In this document: positions 3,076 to 20,325 of the stretch, one piece after another
Layout: every line of letters begins with the position of its first letter
Position numbering within the stretch: the first letter of the stretch is position 1
Virus record (IMG/VR): IMGVR_UViG_3300019889_000044
Span: 1-20,325 of that record
From: a virus
Reading direction: 5' to 3' (one strand)
DNA: 20,325 nt
Notes under the pieces: model-generated
The model's input: only the letters and a program-made list of their open reading frames with translations
Told to the model about the DNA's origin: nothing
Databases searched by the model: none
Position numbers and translations under genes: made by a program

Positions 3076-3713
3076 AGCGTTGAGAGGGCATGGCGCAGCC
3101 AGTCCGGCGAGAACGACGGGGATCCGGAATTCGCTTCGCGGTCCTCGTAATACATGGCGGTAATTCTCAGAACGAGATCGCGCAGGCCCGCTGGCGTATC
3201 GTCCGGCGTCGCATAGCCGGTGATGATGCGGACGACCATATCGGTCGAGATCGGCGCGGCACCCTGTCTTTCGAGAATGCCACCGGAAGGGACGAGGAAT
3301 TGCTGGGCAGGCTGCAGTTCAGGCGAAACCGCACCGACCAGCTGGTAGAGCGGCGAAACGTCGTCGCCGCCGACGAAGACGCTGAAGGAAGATATCGCGC
3401 CCAGTTGTGTCGGCGAATCCGGCACGCTGTAGCCGGTACATGCGCCGCCCGCGCAGCGGTTGCTGGCTTCGGCGGACAGATATCCGGAAAAGGCGGAATA
3501 CGGCGCAATGGAACCGGCGTCCGGACGCCAGACATATTCGCTCTGGCAGACGGCAAGGCCGGTCTCGCGCTCGATAAGCGCCATGCCACGATCGAGAGTA
3601 TCCTTCAGATATTCGTCGTCATCGGTAAAATCGACGCGGCAGTGCGATTTGACCAGCACCAGCCACGCGGTCGAGACCGCCGCCTTATTGCGCTTGAGCA
3701 GCTGCACGCTCAT
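3057..3713 (-). CDS. Head-tail connector protein, gp6-like
   Basis: This 218-residue protein carries the HK97 gp6/head-tail connector pattern: an N-terminal helix with DDDEYLKDTLDRGMALIERETG near residues 32-53, then beta strands, and a C-terminal GYATPDDTPAGLRDLVLRIT helix followed by AMYYEDRE. Such proteins form a ring under the portal. The central part (residues about 60-110) is longer than in HK97 gp6 and contains two Cys. The start at 3713 makes an ATGA overlap with the stop of the collagen-like gene. A longer upstream open frame is a shadow of that gene. Confidence 0.85.
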   Translation of the reverse strand: MSVQLLKRNKAAVSTAWLVLVKSHCRVDFTDDDEYLKDTLDRGMALIERETGLAVCQSEYVWRPDAGSIAPYSAFSGYLSAEASNRCAGGACTGYSVPDSPTQLGAISSFSVFVGGDDVSPLYQLVGAVSPELQPAQQFLVPSGGILERQGAAPISTDMVVRIITGYATPDDTPAGLRDLVLRITAMYYEDREANSGSPSFSPDWLRHALSTLWVPRC

Positions 3714-5455
3714 TTCTTTTGCCGAGCCTCCATCGCCTTGGTAACGGCAGCCGAAACGGCGACCGCCACCTGTTCGTCGATGAACGATTTGAATTCGCCC
3801 TTGAGCGATGCGAGCAATGGCAGAGCGTTGCATTCGAAGATCTCGCCGTCTTCGCGCACGAACGCGAAACGGTCCTCAAGGGCACGCACCTCTATGAATG
3901 GCAGCGCCGCTTCCCCCTGCGCCCCTTGTGGCCCCACAATGCCCTTACCAGGAAGACCCTGCGGCCCCAGTTCTCCCGGCTTGCCGCGCTGACCGCGCGC
4001 CGCCATCAGCTGCCACAATGGTGAATCGCCCGGAACGCCGCTGTTATTGTTGGCTTTCGACAGGAACGAGCCGCCATCCTTGATGACGGTGTCGTGGTAA
4101 CGGTAGACCCTCGTCGGGTCGAAAGTGCCGAGGTGTTCCCATGGAATGGCATCGACGCCGGGTGCGCCCCTTTCGCCATCCTTGCCAGTCGCGCCGTCCT
4201 TGCCTGCCGGACCCTGCCCGCCGTCCTTGCCAGCTTCGCCCTGCGGCCCCTCGGCACCATCTTTGATGTCAGCCAGCCGTGCTTCGACGGCGGTTTCCTT
4301 GTCGGAAAGCCATTTGTCGGCGTCGGCCTGGTACTCGCGGAAGCGGATGGCAAGATCCTTGAATTCGCGTTTGAAGTCACGGATGGCGTCGTCGAGCACA
4401 TCGTGAACGGTGGCGTCGATGCTGGCGGTGGCCTCGTCGAGCAAAGCGGTGACGTCAGCGCGCAGGGCTTCCAGATCATCCGCAACGTCCGGCAGCTTGA
4501 TTCCGGCAATGAGTTCCTGCGTCTCTTTGGAATGGTCGTCGAACAGCTTGCGCACAGCAACGTCAACCGCCGCGAGCCGGTCGTCGCGTTCGGCCAAGGC
4601 ATCAACGCGATCATCGATGCTGCGCAACAGATCGGCTTCGAGCTTCTGCAGGCGATCGACGAAGGCTTCGCTGGACTTGTCCCATTGCCCGCGCAGGATA
4701 TCGAACGCCATGACGCTGTCGGCGCGGTCCAGCTTTTCTTCCAGTGCCTTGTCGAACTTCTGCTGCACGCTGGTGATGTGTTCACCGATGGCCATGGCAC
4801 GGCTGGCGAGATCATCCTGCGCCTTGGTTTTGAATGCGCCGACCAGTTCCTCGCAGATGCGGAACGTATCGGCGATATCGACGGCAACCTGTTTAACCCG
4901 CTCGTCGAGCGCTGCGTAATTGTCATCGGCCAGCTTTTGCAGGGCCTTCAGATCGTCCGCCGTCACTTTGCCGGCAAGCGAGGTCTCGTACTCTTTCGCC
5001 CGTTCTTCGATCCGCGCGTCGACGGCCGTCAAATCAACGCGGAATGCGTCCCACGCCGCGTCGGCAGCCTTTCGCTCTTCGGCAACGTCGCCCATGCCTT
5101 GTGCCAAGTCGTCGACAAGGCTCTGCATATCCTTGAGTTGCCCACGCAGGGCATCCATGCCTGCAAGCACCGCAGCGTCGTCGGCCTTCTTTTCCAGTTC
5201 GCTGCGGAGACCGCTAAGCGCATCCAGCGTTTCGCCTTCGAAGCCTTCCTGCACTTCGTCGCCATGGAGCATGCCTTTGGCAAGATCATCAATGTGTTCG
5301 TGAAGGCCTTTGACGTGCCCGCGCAGGACTTCGAGCGCTGCAAGGGCAACGTCGCTGCCCATCTTCTTTTCCAGTTCCATGCCGAGTTCGGCGCGGACCC
5401 TGCCGATTTCATCGCCAAGAACATCGATAATGACTTGGGGGTCGAATTTCATCAT
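3710..5455 (-). CDS. Collagen-like fibre protein with coiled coil and carbohydrate-binding-like module
   Basis: A 581-residue modular protein. Residues 1-395 are charged helical coiled coil with an internal repeat centred on LRG (near residues 28-62, 87-121 and 238-270). Residues 400-435 are twelve Gly-X-Y triplets. Residues about 438-487 form a module with VYRYHDTV, GGSF and PLWQLMA, resembling the small CBM5/12-type domains of phage fibres. Residues 488-516 are a second, interrupted Gly-X-Y block, and the last 65 residues are a beta/helix cap. Collagen-like segments in phages drive trimerisation. The start MM at 5455 overlaps the portal stop as ATGA. The position just after the portal suggests a head or neck fibre rather than a distal tail fibre; this is inference. 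Confidence 0.85.
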   Translation of the reverse strand: MMKFDPQVIIDVLGDEIGRVRAELGMELEKKMGSDVALAALEVLRGHVKGLHEHIDDLAKGMLHGDEVQEGFEGETLDALSGLRSELEKKADDAAVLAGMDALRGQLKDMQSLVDDLAQGMGDVAEERKAADAAWDAFRVDLTAVDARIEERAKEYETSLAGKVTADDLKALQKLADDNYAALDERVKQVAVDIADTFRICEELVGAFKTKAQDDLASRAMAIGEHITSVQQKFDKALEEKLDRADSVMAFDILRGQWDKSSEAFVDRLQKLEADLLRSIDDRVDALAERDDRLAAVDVAVRKLFDDHSKETQELIAGIKLPDVADDLEALRADVTALLDEATASIDATVHDVLDDAIRDFKREFKDLAIRFREYQADADKWLSDKETAVEARLADIKDGAEGPQGEAGKDGGQGPAGKDGATGKDGERGAPGVDAIPWEHLGTFDPTRVYRYHDTVIKDGGSFLSKANNNSGVPGDSPLWQLMAARGQRGKPGELGPQGLPGKGIVGPQGAQGEAALPFIEVRALEDRFAFVREDGEIFECNALPLLASLKGEFKSFIDEQVAVAVSAAVTKAMEARQKK

Positions 5456-6879
5456 GACGCACCTCGCAGTGCCACTTCCTTGCTGTCGGCCCTTGTCAAA
5501 AGCTTGTGGCGGAACAGGATTCTCTGATCGTCCAGGCTGGCAGCGTTGTCCTCATCGGCTGGCGGATTGTCATCGTTCGCGGGATCTGCTGCAGGCGTTG
5601 CTGGCGGTGCCGCCGGTTCCGGTATCTCGTATGACAGCGGCACCATCTGCTGCTGTACGCGTGGCTCGTCGCCATTCTTCGCGGCAGGCAGGCCTTCGGT
5701 ACGGCGAGCCTCGTTTGGTGCGTAAATGCCGCCCTGCACGGCTCTTGCCATGCCTTCCATGCGGGTCTTGAAATCGGGACGATCGAGAGCGGCGAGATCG
5801 AATTCGGTAAAGTCGTCAGTAAGCTCAATTTCGCCAAGCTTGTCATAAGCGAGTTCGATGTGGTTGACGTAAAAGGCAAGACCCTCGACCTTCCATTGCA
5901 AGGTTAGTTGCTCGACATTGTTCCAGGTTGCGCCGGTCATGTCGTCGATCAACGCCAGCGGCACCCCGAAACAGGCGGCGATCTGCTGGCGCGACAATTG
6001 AAGCGCCTGGATCACTTGCGCGTCCTGCGCATTCATCATCGTGGCTTTCCATTCCAGTTCGTTGGTCAGAATGGGCACGCCACCCGTATTGTGGCCGGTC
6101 GTCTGTTCCATCCAGCGCTCGCGCAGCTGGGTCACCTGATCCTTCGTCAGTGTTGCCTTGGTTTGCAGGACGCCGGACGGCTTCGACTGGTTGCCGAAGA
6201 ACCGTCCCATGTTGATGGTGGCGGCATTGTAGATGCCCTGTTCAATCAGCGAAGCGGTAACGGGCGGCTCGCCGATCAGACCGTGCTGCGGCGTCCGGCA
6301 GCGGATATGCATCATGTCGCGGGCCGGAACCATCCAGCGCTGGCCAGCTTCGAAGGCTGGATCGAGCAGCGGGTCGAGCAGCGGGTTGCCGCCTATCGAA
6401 TAGAACACGTCGCCGGTATCGGCGATCATCGGACGGGTCGATTTCGGGTTGCACAGGTAGAGGGCATCAACCTCGGTGCGGGCATTGCGCTGCGTCACGG
6501 CATAGGCATTGCCCTCGCCTAAAAGATCAAACACCAGATTGAACATGAAATCCGAGCGGGTCTGGTACTGGTTCGGGCGCTTCAGCACCCGCGCCAGACC
6601 GGTGTTCTTGATCACCTCCGTGCCGCCGTTGGTGAGTTCGCGTTTGTGGTTTCCCGGCAGCTGGGCGATGGTGCGGGCATAGAGCGAAATGCAGGCATAG
6701 ACGACGGAATTGCCCGACAGCGCCAGCGGGTCATAGCCGACCTGACCGAAATTGATCGGCCACGCGCAGGGGATCCAGCCCTCGTCGGTCGGCATGCCTG
6801 GCGAAGAATAAGGCCCTGGACGAGAGCGCCAAGGGCCTATCCCCATCAGACCAGCCATACGCTGCACCAGATTCGGCAT
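5452..6879 (-). CDS. Portal protein, HK97 type
   Basis: A 475-residue protein of the usual phage portal length. It has N-terminal YDPLALSGNSVVYACISLYARTIA (residues about 49-72), LLGEGNAYAVTQRN near 119-132, a central stem region with TKDQVTQLRERW, and GVPLALIDD plus ATWNNVEQ in the crown/wing part. It forms the dodecameric DNA gate at the capsid vertex and binds the large terminase. The C-terminal 70 residues are Pro/Ala/Asp-rich, as is common for portal tails. The ATG at 6879 follows GAGG. It comes after the capsid gene in transcription order, the reverse of the common portal-protease-capsid order. Confidence 0.93.
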   Translation of the reverse strand: MPNLVQRMAGLMGIGPWRSRPGPYSSPGMPTDEGWIPCAWPINFGQVGYDPLALSGNSVVYACISLYARTIAQLPGNHKRELTNGGTEVIKNTGLARVLKRPNQYQTRSDFMFNLVFDLLGEGNAYAVTQRNARTEVDALYLCNPKSTRPMIADTGDVFYSIGGNPLLDPLLDPAFEAGQRWMVPARDMMHIRCRTPQHGLIGEPPVTASLIEQGIYNAATINMGRFFGNQSKPSGVLQTKATLTKDQVTQLRERWMEQTTGHNTGGVPILTNELEWKATMMNAQDAQVIQALQLSRQQIAACFGVPLALIDDMTGATWNNVEQLTLQWKVEGLAFYVNHIELAYDKLGEIELTDDFTEFDLAALDRPDFKTRMEGMARAVQGGIYAPNEARRTEGLPAAKNGDEPRVQQQMVPLSYEIPEPAAPPATPAADPANDDNPPADEDNAASLDDQRILFRHKLLTRADSKEVALRGAS

Positions 6880-6888
6880 TGTTCCTCG

Positions 6889-7254
6889 CTATTTCTGTCT
6901 GGCCGCAGCCGGTTTCTTGTCGCGAGTACCTTTCGGCGGGGTGGTTTTTCCATTTGGCGATGCGGCGTCCACCCCGCCGTCCGGTTCCACAACCGTCGCG
7001 GGAGTATGCGGCGGTGGCGAAGGAGCAGCCTCCAGCTGGCGGTTTTGATAGCCTTCGGAATTCCGGTTGAAATAGGCGTCGGCCTTTTCCGTGTGTTCCG
7101 GTTCGTCGCTGACACTGTAGCTGCGGGCGTCGGTCCTCGGATCGTCTGCGATCAGGCCCCAGCCTTCCTTCTCAGCGTGCCGCGCATCGACGTCCGGCAT
7201 ATGCTGGAAAGTCTGGCGGCGTCTCCCGGCGCGGATGAAAACCTGCCGGGTCAT
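6889..7254 (-). CDS. Third paralogue of the module family, disordered tail
   Basis: A 121-residue protein whose residues 5-35 align without gaps to the N-terminal module of the next gene upstream (VFIRAG, central F, D, A-x-x-A, then WGL; nine identities in 31). After the module the protein is low-complexity and Pro/Lys-rich, ending PKGTRDKKPAAARQK, with no further fold visible. The start ATG at 7254 overlaps the stop of the upstream paralogue as ATGA, and the stop is nine bases before the portal start. The family is not recognised. Position between capsid and portal suggests a virion or assembly role. Confidence 0.8.
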   Translation of the reverse strand: MTRQVFIRAGRRRQTFQHMPDVDARHAEKEGWGLIADDPRTDARSYSVSDEPEHTEKADAYFNRNSEGYQNRQLEAAPSPPPHTPATVVEPDGGVDAASPNGKTTPPKGTRDKKPAAARQK

Positions 7255-7598
7255 TCGTCTTCCTCATCCGCCTTTGGCGACGCCTTGGCGGATGGTGCCG
7301 GTGCCGGTTTAGGTTCTGGCGCGGGGGATTCCGGCGCTGCTGGCGCTGCGGTAATCGATGCCTCGAAGTCCGTCAGAGACTTTGGCAGGGTGTGCGCGCT
7401 GGTGTCCCAGCCATCCGGAATCGACGTGTCGAAGCCACTCGCAGACGCGCCATCTTCGGTACTCAATCCCCACTGGTCACTCTTGGCGGCGGCGGCCTGG
7501 CTGTCGTCCAACTGCAGGAACTGGCCCGCATAATTGCCACGCGTCACATAAACGAGTTTCGTTCCACTGGAAGATTTTGCTGTGGGTGCTTTTGCCAT
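7251..7598 (-). CDS. Second paralogue of the module family
   Basis: A 115-residue protein. Residues 16-46 (VYVTRGNYAGQFLQL...WGLS) match the corresponding stretch of the upstream gene at 15 of 31 positions. A second shared motif follows (LPKSLTDFE against YPQSLVDFD). The last 45 residues are an Ala/Pro/Lys-rich linker ending in acidic DEEDE. I prefer the ATG at 7598, which has AAGGG seven bases upstream. The ATG at 7661 would add 21 residues and also has a weak ribosome site (GAGG). Function is unknown; it is probably structural by location. Confidence 0.8.
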   Translation of the reverse strand: MAKAPTAKSSSGTKLVYVTRGNYAGQFLQLDDSQAAAAKSDQWGLSTEDGASASGFDTSIPDGWDTSAHTLPKSLTDFEASITAAPAAPESPAPEPKPAPAPSAKASPKADEEDE

Positions 7599-7667
7599 GG
7601 TTTTACCCTTAATTTTCTGGACTTGTTCAATTTGCGGTGTGAAGTTCAGCGGCTCCGACATCGGGCC

Positions 7668-8282
7668 TCAAGCCACCACCAATTCGAAGTCGATAGGACC
7701 TCCGGTGAAGTACGGGCCGTCCGTGAATAGTATCTGTGTGATCCCGTTGCCGGGGGCGACTACCAGTGGCGTGTGCGTGACGCCCTCGACCTTCAAGGTT
7801 GTCACTCCATCCAATTCTGGGAATTCCCCTGCCAACACCACTGGGCTGTTGGCGTACGTGGTCCTCGCTTCATCCGAATATACATCTGTTATGACGGCGA
7901 GCGGGTATGGCCCGAAGAAATGCGTTGGGGTTATCGACCCGGACAGCCCCCCTATATTCAATACATCGTCTACATTCGCGCCACGGAACCATCCTCCAGC
8001 ACCATCAGTGAAGTCCCCTGAAACAGCTGTTACGGCCATAGGCCCTTCTGGCTCTTCTGGATCGCCGTCGCTGACGAAACTGTTGTCGAAATCGACGAGC
8101 GACTGCGGATAGCTGTAAGGGCTGATATTGAGGCCGGACTCGATGGATGAGTTGATGCCGTTACTGCCCCAGCTGGTGGCATCGACCGCCCATTTGTCGG
8201 TGATGGCTTGCGCGGCTTCGGTATCGGCCATCTGCAGCCGCTGGTTGGCATAATTTCCGAACAGGACGAGGACGTTCTTCAA
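7668..8282 (-). CDS. First paralogue of the module family fused to a beta-rich domain
   Basis: A 204-residue protein starting at TTG 8282, chosen because AGGGAG lies just upstream and no ATG fits. Residues 4-34 are the shared module (VLVLFGNYANQRLQ...DKWAV), then YPQSLVDFD. After an acidic linker (DGDPEEPEGP) comes a ~120-residue Gly/Thr/Val-rich beta domain that looks like a surface decoration or Ig/lectin-like fold. The DNA for that domain is AT-richer than its surroundings: I counted about 53% GC at 7861-8040. An internal ATG with a nearby AAGG at the domain boundary (near 8040) might allow separate expression. The gene follows the capsid, so a capsid decoration protein is plausible but unproven. 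Confidence 0.75.
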   Translation of the reverse strand: MKNVLVLFGNYANQRLQMADTEAAQAITDKWAVDATSWGSNGINSSIESGLNISPYSYPQSLVDFDNSFVSDGDPEEPEGPMAVTAVSGDFTDGAGGWFRGANVDDVLNIGGLSGSITPTHFFGPYPLAVITDVYSDEARTTYANSPVVLAGEFPELDGVTTLKVEGVTHTPLVVAPGNGITQILFTDGPYFTGGPIDFELVVA

Positions 8283-8377: not shown

Positions 8378-10357
8378 CTACCAGGTCAGTCCGTTGACCA
8401 CGGCAACCATGCCGGACCGGCGCATTGCCCAGTCCATATCGAGCAGCATGCGAATGCCGATCGAGGCCGTCTGCCACAACGAGCGGACCGGCGCAGCCGC
8501 CGCGCCAGCGCCATCGACGATGGGAAGCACCGTGCCCGGAACCGGAATGGCTTCCGTTGCCGGATAGCTGCCGTCCTCTTCGTGGATGGTCGCAACGTCG
8601 GAAACATCGAATTCTGGCGAATCGCCCACGCCCGTCGAGAAGTCGGCAACGCGCAGCAGGATCAGCTGTGTCGTCGGGACGCTCGTCGATGCGATGTAGG
8701 GGAATCCACCGATGTTACCGGCATTGATCTGGTCGCGGTACGGGTAGACACCGACCGTGGTGGCAACGTACTGCAGCTTGAAGATCATCGACGGGTTGAT
8801 CAGGAACACCAGCCGGTCAGCCGCATTGGCGGTAATGAACGGAGCAATGATCGCCTGAAGATCCTTGTCGATGGCATTCGTGCCGCCGCCAGCTGTTCCC
8901 GCAATCGGCGTGACGCCGTTCAGGAGGCCTGCGGGGCGGATCGCATCGCCTGCCACGGTGTCGAGCAAAGCCGCGTCAACCGCGATGGCGGTATCATCGA
9001 TAATGCCTTCACGAATCAGGTTCTCGATGGCCGGTGTGGAATGCAGGGCCATTTCGCGGGTATAGGTGGAGATGACGCCCATCTTGTGCGGCACCAGGGT
9101 CACCGACCCGAAAGAACCACGGCGGACAGGAATCGGCTGACCTTCGCCAACGAACGCACCGGCAAGATCGCCGGGTGCCCGACGTGCCTGATTGCGGCGC
9201 GGCAGCTTGATCTGACCGTTACGACCGAATGTGAACTTTGTCCCCATCGTCGAGAGACCGCCATAGACGGACACCGGCTTCAGAGATTCGAGTAGATCGT
9301 CGATGCCGGTCGTAACCAGTTCGGCGGCCCAGCCAGCAACAGTCGTCTGTGCCGGATTGGTCACTGCCTTGATCACTTCGGCAATGTCGTCGCGGTCGCC
9401 ATACCGCAAAGCACGGACGGCTTCGATAGGCTGGCGGGTGGCATGCGCCTGAAGGTGGCAAACGGCCATCTTGATCAGGATATCCATCGGACGTTCGCGG
9501 GCCGGTGCGCCTTTGCGGGCGTCACCCTGGACGGCTGGCTTGAACAGCTGTCCGCTGTTCTGGGCGGCAGCAGCCGTGCGCATGCCGAGGTCTTTCTCGG
9601 TCGAACGCAGGCGAGCGAGGTCTTTTTCGGTCTTTTCGATCTCGGCGGTCAGTGCGTCGAATTCGAGTGTTTCTTCGTCCGTGACGTCTTCGTCATCGCG
9701 GAACTTGGCATCAAGCGGTGCCTTTTTATCGTGGGCCGCGACGAGCTTCTGCTCCAGTTCGCGGATTCTCTCAGCGAGGGTCATTTTTCGCCCCTGTTTT
9801 TCGAGTTCAGGGCCGGACTTGGCGGTGGGTGGTTTTCCGATTTGCTGGTCTGGGATGCCTGACTTGGCGACGACAAGCGCTCGGGTTTCTGCGGTAAGTT
9901 CCAGGCCCTTGGAGCGGCGCAGCGCATCCGCATTCGCGGGCACCGATACGACCGAACATTCGAGCAATTTGGATTTGAGATAGCGGAATGGTCCCCAGAA
10001 CGGATCGGCGTCCTTGCTGATCGGTTCTTTTTCAAGGGGAATGAAGCCGACGCTGACGGCGCGCAGGATCCGCGCTTCCAATAGCTGGCGCACTTCGTCG
10101 ACGCGCGGGATTAGGCCGCTTTCAAGAAGCTTCAGGCGACCGACAAGCTGCTTACCGACGACCTTGACCTGATCCCATGTGCCGATTGGCTGGGTCTTGT
10201 CGTGCATGAACAAGGCGACGGGGTTGCGGTTGAAGTCGTCCAGCTGCCAGCCCTTGGCAACGATAATGTCGCCGACGCGATCTACCGATTCGCTGGACAT
10301 CACGAATTCATACGGATCGTCAGCGGATTGTTCGGCAGATTTGAAAACAAGGTCCAT
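8378..10357 (-). CDS. Fused HK97 prohead protease - scaffold - major capsid protein
   Basis: A single 659-residue frame. Residues 1-150 are an HK97-type prohead protease with SVDRVGD, catalytic-type His in FMHD (52), Ser in SVGF (102) and Glu in LLECSVVSVPAN (133). A linker follows to residue 190. Residues 192-260 are the charged delta/scaffold coiled coil (MTLAERIRELEQ...). The rest is an HK97-fold capsid protein with a typical E-loop/P-domain pattern and RSLWQTASIG near the end. In HK97 itself protease and capsid are separate genes. The ATG at 10357 is used although its ribosome site is weak; TTG 10393 is an alternative. An internal start at 9784 could make the capsid alone. Confidence 0.92.
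   Translation of the reverse strand: MDLVFKSAEQSADDPYEFVMSSESVDRVGDIIVAKGWQLDDFNRNPVALFMHDKTQPIGTWDQVKVVGKQLVGRLKLLESGLIPRVDEVRQLLEARILRAVSVGFIPLEKEPISKDADPFWGPFRYLKSKLLECSVVSVPANADALRRSKGLELTAETRALVVAKSGIPDQQIGKPPTAKSGPELEKQGRKMTLAERIRELEQKLVAAHDKKAPLDAKFRDDEDVTDEETLEFDALTAEIEKTEKDLARLRSTEKDLGMRTAAAAQNSGQLFKPAVQGDARKGAPARERPMDILIKMAVCHLQAHATRQPIEAVRALRYGDRDDIAEVIKAVTNPAQTTVAGWAAELVTTGIDDLLESLKPVSVYGGLSTMGTKFTFGRNGQIKLPRRNQARRAPGDLAGAFVGEGQPIPVRRGSFGSVTLVPHKMGVISTYTREMALHSTPAIENLIREGIIDDTAIAVDAALLDTVAGDAIRPAGLLNGVTPIAGTAGGGTNAIDKDLQAIIAPFITANAADRLVFLINPSMIFKLQYVATTVGVYPYRDQINAGNIGGFPYIASTSVPTTQLILLRVADFSTGVGDSPEFDVSDVATIHEEDGSYPATEAIPVPGTVLPIVDGAGAAAAPVRSLWQTASIGIRMLLDMDWAMRRSGMVAVVNGLTW
9782..9796 (-). 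promoter_or_regulatory. Internal ribosome-binding site and start for free capsid protein
   Basis: Within the protease-capsid frame, minus-strand CAGGGGCGAAAA precedes an in-frame ATG at 9784. AGGGG is six bases from the ATG, better than the site at the annotated gene start. The ATG falls exactly at the boundary where the delta/scaffold domain begins (MTLAERIREL), giving a 468-residue capsid of normal HK97-type length. It could set a high capsid:protease ratio. Confidence 0.6.
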
Positions 10358-10405
10358 CGGCAGCGGTCCAGAATTTGCGCTGCCTGATCGCAATAAATGC
10401 GTCGC

Positions 10406-16906: not shown

Positions 16907-18583
16907 TTACCCGATCATGGACTCCACGTCGGCGATGGTTTCCGTCTGCAATTTCAACGCAGCAACCGCTTCGACCGCAGCAACGGCAGGGTCTATGCGC
17001 CCGAATGATTTGGATTTGGTCAGCTTGCGGTTGTTCGCCGGATCGCGGTCGATGATCGCGTTCGATACCGCCCAGCGCAGAACCGGATGGCCGTTATGGA
17101 AGATCCGGCCTGCCAGCGCCAGTTCCTCGAACACATCGATCGCCGGGGCCATGTCCTTGTAACCTTGACCGAACTCCATGAGCGGAACGGACACGCCCAT
17201 GCGCACGAAGGATTGCTTGAGAACGTCAATGCGCCAGCGGTCGTAAGCCATGCGTACAAGGTTCATATTCGCGGTGGCTTCGCCGATATCGCTGGCCAGC
17301 CAGTCGTAGTTCAGGCTCGACCCTGGCACAGGGATCAAAAACTCCTGTTTCGCCCAGACGCGGTACGGTGCGCGATCCCGCAGGCCTCGATCGTCGAGGG
17401 TGTCATCCGGCGTCCAGATGCGCGGGAACAGGTGGATGTTGAATTCGTCGTCCTCGACCGCGAACACGGCCGCCGACAAATCGGTGCGGGCCGAGAGATC
17501 GAGACCGCCGAAAACCGGACGCCCGTCGTAGAGCAGCGCCTCGTTCGTCGGCTTGTCGCCGAGCTTCCACACGCTGGCAGTCAGAAACGGCGCTTTCGCC
17601 TGCACCCGTTGATTGAGGTAGAGGTTACGTACCGAGGCCTCCAGCGAAGGCACCTTGACGGCGCGCTTCATGGTGGTGCGGAACTCGTCGATGTCGCGAT
17701 AGTCGCCGAGCGTCGGGTTGGCGCGGTGCCATTCCTTCTCGTCCATCAAATCGCAGTTGTCGTTGGCGGCGAACAGATGGACGGTAAAGGTATCGTCGTC
17801 GATCTCCCCCGCCTTTACCTTCAGCCCGTAATCGATCAGCTCCGAAAGAATATGATCGTTCGCCGGGGCCTGCGTGGAAATAACCATCATCAGCGGCTCG
17901 ACCTGTGAACCAAGCGACGTCATCAGCGTATCGTACAGCGCCGAGTTCTTAGCTTGCGCAAGTTCGTCATATACAACTAGGTCAAGGCCTTCGCCGAACT
18001 GTCCGCCCGCTTCAGCCGCGATGGCCATGTAATGCGAACTATCGGTTTTGTTGACCACGGACTTGGTGGAGTCGATCACCTTCAGGCGCTTGGCGATGGT
18101 TTTATTGGCGCGGACCATCGCGGCAACGAAACGGAAGACGATGCCTGCCTGCTTGCGGCTGGTTGCCGCCGAGGCAATCGTCGAGTGCGGGCGCTTAGCG
18201 GGGCCGACGAGGTGGATAAGGATAACAAGTGCCGCGAGCAGCGTCTTTCCGGCGCGGCGGCCCACGGACATAACAGCCTGGCGGCGCTTGCGCCGTCCGT
18301 CCGGCCCGCGCGGATTGTAGACGTCGCGAAGGAAGTCCATCTGGAACGGGCGCAGGCGAAGCGGCTGGCCGACGAAGATACCGGCCGGCACCTTCAGCGA
18401 ATGGCAAAAAGCGATAATCGGGCCGGAAGGAAGATGCCAGTCGCGCTGCGGTACTTCCAGCAGGACGAACAGGTCGCGCAGATATTGCGGCAATGGCGGG
18501 CGGCGTTCGGCCTTCGCCTTCGGCAATACCGCCGTCGCTGCGGTGGCCCCTATGCCCGCGAGAACCGTCCGGCGCGTCACCAT
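16907..18583 (-). CDS. terL: Terminase large subunit
   Basis: A 558-residue packaging motor. The ATPase domain has Walker A SVGRRAGKT (106-114), Walker B LDLVVYDE (200-207) and a coupling motif ISTQA (235-239). The RNase-H-like nuclease begins with GLDLS, Asp 362, and ends with GRIDPAVAAVEA, Asp 531. It translocates and cuts the genome at the portal. The start, ATG 18583, shares a base with the methyltransferase stop (TGATG) behind GGAGG. Residues 1-25 (MVTRRTVLAGIGATAATAVL then AKA) look like a twin-arginine signal peptide, which is odd for a cytoplasmic enzyme. The remainder is normal in length. Confidence 0.95.
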   Translation of the reverse strand: MVTRRTVLAGIGATAATAVLPKAKAERRPPLPQYLRDLFVLLEVPQRDWHLPSGPIIAFCHSLKVPAGIFVGQPLRLRPFQMDFLRDVYNPRGPDGRRKRRQAVMSVGRRAGKTLLAALVILIHLVGPAKRPHSTIASAATSRKQAGIVFRFVAAMVRANKTIAKRLKVIDSTKSVVNKTDSSHYMAIAAEAGGQFGEGLDLVVYDELAQAKNSALYDTLMTSLGSQVEPLMMVISTQAPANDHILSELIDYGLKVKAGEIDDDTFTVHLFAANDNCDLMDEKEWHRANPTLGDYRDIDEFRTTMKRAVKVPSLEASVRNLYLNQRVQAKAPFLTASVWKLGDKPTNEALLYDGRPVFGGLDLSARTDLSAAVFAVEDDEFNIHLFPRIWTPDDTLDDRGLRDRAPYRVWAKQEFLIPVPGSSLNYDWLASDIGEATANMNLVRMAYDRWRIDVLKQSFVRMGVSVPLMEFGQGYKDMAPAIDVFEELALAGRIFHNGHPVLRWAVSNAIIDRDPANNRKLTKSKSFGRIDPAVAAVEAVAALKLQTETIADVESMIG

Positions 18584-19842
18584 CAGGCCTCCGCTTGCCG
18601 CTCGGCCTCAACCTCGGCAAAGGAGCGCCCGTCATCGAGCGCAGCGGTTTCGCCGGTAAAGGCTTCCCATCGTTTGACCGCCACATCGACATAGGGCGGC
18701 ATCAGTTCCATGGCGAGGCACGACCGCGCTTCCATTTCCGCCGCAATGATGGTGGTGCCGGACCCGACGAAAGGATCGTAGACCGCATGCCCCGGCGAAG
18801 AATTGGAAATGATCGGGCGGCGCATGCATTCGACCGGCTTTTGCGTCGAGTGGCCGGTTTCCGACTTCTGGTGTTCGATGGTCCACAGCGTCGATTGCGA
18901 CCGCCCGCCATGCCACGATGCCTTGTTACCCTTGCGCACGGCATACCAGCACGGCTCATGCTGCCAGTGATAGTTGCCGCGGGAAATGACAAAGCGGTTT
19001 TTTGCCCAGATGATTTGGCTGCGGATTTCGAAGCCTTCGGCCTTGAGCGAGTCCTCGACTTCCGATGCGAACAGGCCCGCATGCCAGACGTAAGCGACCT
19101 GTCCTGGAAACAGCGCGAAGGCCAGCCGCCAGTCGGCCTGCTCGTCGTTCGCTACCTTGCCGACCGCCCTTCCCCCGATCACGCTGCCGTCCTCGCGCAG
19201 CGCATGGTTGCGCCAGTCGGCATCATAGGCCACGCCGTAAGGCGGATCGGTCACCATCAGCCCCGGCTTGACGCCGTCCATCAGCCGACCGGCATTGTCG
19301 GGCGCGGTGCAATCGCCGCATAAGAGCCGGTGGTTGCCAAGGATCCACAGATCGCCGTTTCGTGACGTCGGGACGTCAGGCAGCGGCGGCACCTCGTCCG
19401 GATCGGTCAAGCCCTTGGTTCCGGCACCGGCCAGCACTCTGGTAAGATCGTCGCCCTCGTATCCTGTCAGAGCCTGATATTCCGGATCAAGTGACGCCAT
19501 GTCGGCGGCGAGCAGTTCGCTGTCCCATGTCGACAGTTCGGCGATGTGGTTGTCGGCGATGCGGTAGGCCTTGATTTGTGTTTCGGTCCAGCCGCGCGCC
19601 ACCATCACCGGCAGCGATTCCAGCTTCAAGAGCATGGCGGCGAGAATGCGCCCATGGCCCGCTATCACCACATCGTCCTCGTCGACGAGGATCGGCACGG
19701 TGAACCCCCACTCGCGAATTGAAGCGGCGATGCGCTCAATCTGGTGCTCGGTATGGACGCGGGCATTCTCGGCGTAGGGAATAAGCGTGGCAATCGGTCG
19801 GCGCTCAACCTTGTCGGCTGGCCACATGACGCGTTCGTTCAT
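18583..19842 (-). CDS. ParB/Srx domain - DNA methyltransferase fusion
   Basis: A 419-residue fusion. Residues about 15-105 are a ParB/sulfiredoxin-like domain with the AGHGRILAA box (61-69). Residues 165-395 are a DNA methyltransferase with DPPYG (199-203), a central target-recognition region, and DPFVGSGTT (356-364). DPPY before FxGxG is the beta-class order, giving N4-cytosine or N6-adenine methylation. I use the ATG at 19842, which follows AAGGA by seven bases and overlaps the small-terminase stop as ATGA. It lies between the two terminase genes, so genome methylation may be timed with packaging; target sequence is unknown. Confidence 0.93.
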   Translation of the reverse strand: MNERVMWPADKVERRPIATLIPYAENARVHTEHQIERIAASIREWGFTVPILVDEDDVVIAGHGRILAAMLLKLESLPVMVARGWTETQIKAYRIADNHIAELSTWDSELLAADMASLDPEYQALTGYEGDDLTRVLAGAGTKGLTDPDEVPPLPDVPTSRNGDLWILGNHRLLCGDCTAPDNAGRLMDGVKPGLMVTDPPYGVAYDADWRNHALREDGSVIGGRAVGKVANDEQADWRLAFALFPGQVAYVWHAGLFASEVEDSLKAEGFEIRSQIIWAKNRFVISRGNYHWQHEPCWYAVRKGNKASWHGGRSQSTLWTIEHQKSETGHSTQKPVECMRRPIISNSSPGHAVYDPFVGSGTTIIAAEMEARSCLAMELMPPYVDVAVKRWEAFTGETAALDDGRSFAEVEAERQAEA

Positions 19843-20325
19843 TGTTTCATCCTTGGCGGTGTGAACCACGCGCCGTTTGGGTCGCCATCGGCACCCAGCA
19901 GCAATTCAAGCGGATCGTCTTCGTCGCTGTCGGAACCGGCGAGCCGCGCCCTGGCAACCGGCGAAAGCCCGATCTCGCCACCGGCTCGGTGCATCTCCAG
20001 CGACGCCTTCTCCTGAATCGGCAGCAAAGGGTTACGAACCGGCCCTGCAGCCGAACGAACCAAAAGGCCACTTGCCCTGATCTGGGTTTGACAGTCGCGG
20101 AACCGGCTCCAAGCTATGGCGAACCGCTCCAATATGGCATCGTCCGCGCTCGACAGCAGACCCTTCGGCAGGGAACGTACAACGAGACGCCATAGCGCGG
20201 ATTCGGCTTCGGAAAGGTCCGCAGGCGGCGTCGGCTTGCCGCTGCCTTTCGGATCATCTTTCAGCTTATCCCTGCCAACTTTAGACCGGTTTCCTTCGGC
20301 TTTCTTGGCGATTGATGTCTTCGGC
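19839..20325 (-). CDS. terS: Terminase small subunit, P27 family (N-terminus outside window)
   Basis: The open frame enters at the right edge with ...AEGNRSKVGRDKLKDD and runs 161 residues to its stop. It has the P27-type pattern: a GN-x-x-K start, an acidic proline-rich linker, an LSEAESALWRLVVRSLP helix, a central DDAILERFAIAW helix, and EIGLSPVARARL near the end, close to the E-x-G-L-T-P-S-A-R-x-R-L family signature. It recognises the packaging site and regulates the large subunit. The stop overlaps the methyltransferase start. Only the first ~15-20 residues appear to be missing. Confidence 0.9.
   Translation of the reverse strand, partial: PKTSIAKKAEGNRSKVGRDKLKDDPKGSGKPTPPADLSEAESALWRLVVRSLPKGLLSSADDAILERFAIAWSRFRDCQTQIRASGLLVRSAAGPVRNPLLPIQEKASLEMHRAGGEIGLSPVARARLAGSDSDEDDPLELLLGADGDPNGAWFTPPRMKQ

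Follow-up and report, generated by a model that had tools for sequence, protein, structure and literature searches.

Three consecutive small genes lying between the genes for the major capsid protein and the portal protein raise the question of whether they descend from a single gene and, if so, what several versions of one small protein could do in the phage head. The window, by which we mean the entire stretch of DNA analysed here, is a virus record of 20,325 bases. The genes, hereafter A, B and C, are encoded on the minus strand between a gene for a prohead protease-capsid fusion protein and the portal gene (Table 1).

Table 1. Features of the capsid-portal region of the window, from the capsid end to the portal end
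Feature	Positions	Strand	Remarks
Prohead protease-major capsid fusion	8378..10393	(-)	Pfam Peptidase_S78 and Phage_capsid; PHROGs
Gene A	7668..8282	(-)	204 aa; TTG start at 8282; module, PxSLxxF motif and beta-rich tail; upstream kind
Module of A (residues 1-36)	8175..8282	(-)	Predicted beta-beta-alpha-beta; AlphaFold pLDDT above 90 for residues 1-40
PQSLVDF, second motif in A	8088..8108	(-)	Count of P-x-S-[LY]-x-x-[FWY] across upstream copies
Tail of A, probably a beta domain	7668..8042	(-)	Low-confidence model with strands (pLDDT 26-58)
Gene B	7251..7598	(-)	115 aa from ATG at 7598; ORF opens at 7661
Module of B	7452..7559	(-)	Pairwise and profile matches
PKSLTDF, second motif in B	7365..7385	(-)	Motif count in upstream copies
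Gene C	6889..7254	(-)	121 aa; portal-proximal kind
Module of C (residues 3-36)	7147..7248	(-)	AlphaFold pLDDT about 90; strand/helix order as in A
Predicted helix of C (residues 52-75)	7030..7101	(-)	AlphaFold
YQNR in C (residues 69-72)	7039..7050	(-)	Degenerate Y-x-[TN]-R peptide
Portal protein	5452..6879	(-)	Phage_portal, E 8.8e-76

Gene organization

The three ORFs reported in the initial annotation are all present between the capsid and portal genes, except that the start of B was moved to the ATG at 7598. The latter is most likely the start codon of B, rather than 7661, as (i) the ATG GCA AAA sequence is conserved in the near-twin locus L003, and (ii) AAGGG is found upstream of the ATG. 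The stop codon of B overlaps the start of C, and gene A is kept in L003 as well. The make-up of B is the module and the PxSLxxF motif, followed by a Pro/Ala-rich tail with an acidic end, and that of C is the module, a helix, a degenerate Y-x-T-R peptide and a basic tail. The tails had been described as entirely different from each other, which holds for the beta-rich tail of A and for that of B, but the tail of C is not wholly disordered, as had been supposed, because of its predicted helix and YQNR.

A shared module in A, B and C

From their sequences, A and B are unmistakable paralogues (BLASTP: 40% over 70 aa, E 3e-13). Their best ungapped 31-mer contains 16 identities with a score of 75, while 1000 shuffles peak at 44. 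The segment that the initial annotation had taken for a shared module of 31 residues is thus genuine, but the likeness between A and B extends over ~70 residues; P-x-S-L-x-D-F, noted there as common to the two genes, occurs as PQSLVDF in A and PKSLTDF in B. C is less readily connected by pairwise comparison. The 9 of 31 identities counted earlier between B and C were reproduced, and are equalled by 4 of 1000 shuffles (BLASTP E 0.006, which is marginal), and the similarity between A and C is not significant, being reached by 73 of 1000 shuffles. Likewise, the pattern V-x-V-x-x-G-N-Y-A-x-Q ... D-x-W, proposed for all three genes, fits A and B but not C, which reads V-F-I-R-A-G-R-R-R-Q-T ... E-G-W-G-L.

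A profile search, which had been named as a check on the claim of three genes with a shared module, links all three proteins. The profile rested on 25 modules from other phages, with the window and L003 left out, and its E-values refer to a local collection of 13,760 ORFs. Among all ORFs of the window it recovered exactly A (E 1.9e-11), B (6.8e-11) and C (1.8e-5), the next ORF being at 7.1, and the best E-value among 6000 shuffled sequences was 0.74. As the profile contains portal-proximal copies of other phages, the result for C indicates membership of the family more than a direct link to A. Iterative searches seeded with A, B or C reach one common set.

The modules of A and C were predicted by AlphaFold to comprise strands 2-6, 15-18 and 32-34 with helix 20-28 (A, from an alignment with all kinds of module) and strands 2-7, 15-20 and 33-36 with helix 21-30 (C, from an alignment with neither A nor B). 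In both models, which are of high confidence over this region, the module is the same beta-beta-alpha-beta mini-domain and not an unrelated fold. For both, the N-domain of ribosomal protein bL9 came up as a structural match (rmsd 1.2 and Z 3.5 over 35 residues for A, rmsd 2.8 and Z 4.2 over 50 residues for C). These matches are weak, with Foldseek E-values above 1, and suggest a common simple fold with no function implied. No relative emerged when solved structures were searched by sequence, and a low-ranking structure match, a 51-aa protein of Vibrio phage VP882 (gp27, judging by its length) that adjoins the tail sheath gene, was set aside as uninformative on position.

Could C have arrived at such a mini-domain independently, leaving only two paralogues? 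The chance-level similarity between A and C, the marginal match between B and C, and a fold simple enough to match unrelated proteins such as bL9 would all accord with convergence. We nevertheless consider it very improbable, as a profile built from neither the window nor L003 detects C and no further ORF of the window below an E-value of 7, and as the searches from each gene converge. That A, B and C constitute one modular gene family is therefore well supported. The window gene at 886-1095, considered as a fourth paralogue, was rejected, having no detectable paralogy to A, B or C. It lies on the minus strand and encodes a small protein matching phrog_29233 (E 4e-8), with a pattern resembling strand-strand-helix-strand.

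Relatives and copy number

Relatives were sampled via their portal and capsid genes, with the module itself not selected for, and amounted to about 100 loci. Fifteen of them are in bacterial genomes, namely those of Bradyrhizobium, Ensifer, Mesorhizobium, Sphingomonas, Lichenifustis and one Rhizobiales isolate, all of which are Alphaproteobacteria. An iterative search of the sampled loci yielded 43 module ORFs, some from near-identical contigs, and all but one of these (42/43) lie in the gap between the capsid and portal genes. One to four copies occur in tandem per locus, and most module-bearing phages have a single copy, as does L040, a prophage relative in Ensifer sp. MPMI2T. Two copies were found in L006, L017, L044 and L050, three in the window and L003, and four in L045. 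Of the two copies of L043, one is in the gap; the other, located after the portal gene (5516-6058), is the sole copy outside the gap and has a possible Ig/PKD-like tail with weak Pfam matches. None of 50,697 phage records matched when queried directly with A, B or C.

Two kinds of copy

The copies fall into two kinds. Those upstream consist of the module, the motif P-x-S-[LY]-x-x-[FWY] and a variable tail, which is TIG/Ig-like, another beta domain or Pro/Ala-rich. The motif is present in 8 of 11 upstream copies and in none of the 27 others, with 0.05 expected. Pfam identified three TIG domains in the tail of the second copy of L045 (E 3.8e-14) and one in the upstream tail of L044 (E 4e-9), and the tail of L028 has a TIG match at E 2.7e-4. 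The upstream tail of L017 is an Ig-like domain that matches a PHROG of virion structural proteins, and the first and third copies of L045 carry a domain resembling one in tail proteins. The tail of A itself has no Pfam match, and the structure matches to its low-confidence model are weak (Z 2-3), several being to Ig-like or beta-sandwich chains. Duplication of the module with different cargo, as suggested in the initial annotation, is thus borne out by relatives with up to four tandem copies and tails of the types above.

The portal-proximal or only copy, in turn, is composed of the module and a helix, from which a linker leads to a C-terminal Y-x-[TN]-R peptide. Across all types of gap protein, Y-x-[TN]-[RK] occurs in 59 of the 96 last proteins of the gap against 2.8 expected; the peptide is absent or degenerate in some members. 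In the module tree, which rests on 38 columns and in which most other forks are open, C clusters with the portal-proximal copies of L003, L006, L017 and L044 (support 95/92). This clade holds 5 of the 6 portal-proximal copies of multi-copy phages, the last copy of L045 falling outside. On these sequence grounds C is of the portal-proximal kind, and its clustering with the corresponding copies of other phages implies that the split between C and A/B is probably old and that the expansion took place within the upstream kind. The initial annotation overlooked this separate, apparently older sub-kind with its C-terminal peptide.

A putative alternative anchor in sister lineages

Loci without the module mostly have another small protein in the gap, with the motif PTPTQ-x-END, which we found 60 times in the capsid-portal gap and 3 times outside. 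Of these PTPTQ-type proteins, 30/54 have a Y-x-T-R end. Those with TIG tails (L032, E 1.9e-8; L035, 5.8e-9; L038, 4.5e-11) are accompanied by a second, TIG-less copy, and those of L092 and L105 bear Ig-like tails and match a PHROG of virion structural proteins. The slot, the Y-x-T-R peptide and the tail types persist in sister lineages while the anchor differs. Comparison of the single-copy and PTPTQ relatives with named phages gave no usable match; one weak match, MT835575, was set aside, as it is not in a capsid gene neighbourhood.

Comparison with known systems

The closest parallel, which comes from experiment, is offered by the linking proteins of Agrobacterium phage Milano. LP2 (38 residues) is similar to the N-terminal strand of LP1, which has an Ig-type domain in addition, and the two occupy quasi-equivalent positions of the shell (PMC10491603). 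The arrangement of the linking proteins in Agrobacterium phage 7-7-1 is similar (PMC12796354). Like these, the genes of the window are paralogues that share an N-terminal segment and differ in their C-terminal parts (see the A/B comparison above). The anchor of the linking proteins, however, is a short, unstructured, cysteine-bearing strand, whereas the module of the window is predicted to be folded (for A and C), and A, B and C have no cysteine. The LP genes of 7-7-1 are downstream of the capsid gene rather than between capsid and portal, and LP1 and LP2 of 7-7-1 have no visible sequence likeness to A, B or C. On the best reading of this analogy, the family would work like the linking proteins of Milano and 7-7-1 without being a member of theirs.

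In T5 pb10, an Ig-like domain is fused to a domain that binds the capsid (PMC5292684), and pb10, T4 Hoc and Sf14 gp20 all combine a capsid-binding domain with a variable number of Ig-like domains (PMC5292684, PMC10385173, PMC11821841). The anchor of pb10 is alpha-helical, unlike the module of the window, and proteins of this type are usually encoded by a single gene, without tandem paralogues sharing an anchor. No sequence match was found between these Ig-like decoration proteins and the window family.

Among PHROGs, phrog_26939 (104 positions, no function assigned) spans the single-copy relatives from the module to the C-terminus (L009: E 8.8e-7, residues 5-105), and its HMM matches A weakly (E 0.0024), B at 0.52 and C not at all. 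The 'head protein' phrog_25283 (E 0.012 to A) was dropped, as it did not recur in the relatives. Escherichia phage JLK-2012 and Salmonella phage FSL SP-016 likewise have one small protein, phrog_829, in the capsid-portal slot beside a protease-capsid fusion. An hhalign comparison of phrog_829, with a profile of two sequences only, and the C family gave no match (probability 0.3%, one aligned column).

Proposed function

Gene position, tail types and repeated duplication together point to an anchor on the head surface. We thus favour, with a probability of roughly 55%, the interpretation that A, B and C are paralogous head-accessory proteins composed of a head-surface docking module and exchangeable tails; their incorporation into virions, the surface on which they dock and the display of the tails are what we infer. 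Docking on the head is supported by the concentration of module ORFs in the gap, in loci that had been collected by their portal or capsid genes and not by the module. TIG and Ig-like domains are typical of known decoration proteins. The anchor of ~36 residues would dock at a site that recurs across the HK97-type capsid shell. In the upstream copies A and B, it would be followed by the second motif and then by a variable tail presented outside, i.e., a beta domain from A and a flexible Pro/Ala-rich arm from B. C would represent the basal kind, which is the single one in most relatives, with an anchor, a helix, a flexible linker and the Y-x-T-R peptide, and the latter may make a second contact, on the shell or on the portal. 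Sharing one anchor, the paralogues could be rivals for quasi-equivalent sites or partition them among themselves, and a single shell may thus display tails of two to four types. It is attractive, albeit distinctly more tentative, to speculate that the head is a mosaic, with two to four paralogues on quasi-equivalent sites of the shell, the last of them adding the Y-x-T-R contact, and with both tails and anchor swapped in the capsid-portal slot.

The initial annotation had suggested a capsid- or portal-docking tag, which is still a plausible description of the module and has a structural precedent in the linking proteins of Milano and 7-7-1. If the portal is the target, either the module or the Y-x-T-R peptide would bind it (12 copies per particle), and the tails would operate at the vertex where head and tail join, or at the collar. 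In nearly all loci the gene immediately precedes the portal gene, the peptide marks the last gene before it, and one clade accommodates 5 of the 6 portal-proximal copies of multi-copy phages. The gene is, however, equally close to the capsid gene, and decoration of the shell better suits TIG/Ig-like tails. Module type showed no preference in a nearest-neighbour test against capsid (82/85) or portal (80/85) sequence, and we regard portal or neck docking as rather unlikely. Slightly less likely again is that the proteins are assembly factors of a scaffold- or chaperone-like type, acting in the prohead with most copies leaving the particle. Small, partly disordered proteins beside the capsid gene would be compatible with such a role, and the annotated proteins include none recognisable as a separate scaffold. 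Nevertheless, the capsid protein is a protease fusion, and HK97-type fusions of this sort usually carry a scaffolding domain of their own; folded TIG/Ig-like tails would also be unusual in scaffolds.

Other genes of the window and its relatives

Directly after the portal gene and before the head-tail connector gene, the window encodes a 581-aa coiled-coil/collagen-like protein (3710-5455, minus strand), which has a 656-aa counterpart at the same place in L003 (7177-9147). Its place after the portal gene is more suggestive of a head fibre than of a tail fibre. In the capsid-portal gap of other loci we noticed a gene with TPR and weak glycosyltransferase-9 matches (L096, 3452-4546), and a pair with a weak glycosyltransferase-9 match and a methyltransferase (L012, 4197-4904 and 4754-5896); these are possibly virion modification genes. 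Rhizobium phage RHph_X2_26 (L122) has an annotated SGNH hydrolase with weak Pfam GDSL lipase matches between capsid and portal (6032-7246). Just upstream of the terminase gene of the window is a gene for a DNA methylase (18583-19869, minus strand; N6_N4_Mtase, E 1.7e-18) whose N-terminus has a weak ParB-like match.

Implications

Paralogues sharing a docking segment are already known from Milano and 7-7-1, and what appears to differ here, judging from sequences and models, is a folded, cysteine-free anchor in the capsid-portal slot. Roles can now be proposed for proteins listed as unknown, i.e., phrog_26939 and the PTPTQ type, and a folded anchor of ~36 residues could serve as a natural display tag. 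If the interpretation favoured here is correct, the capsid-portal gap of these phages is a plug-in site at which a small anchor gene is duplicated and given new tails. Surface domains could then be acquired while the capsid protein itself stays unchanged, which would account for their gain by phages.
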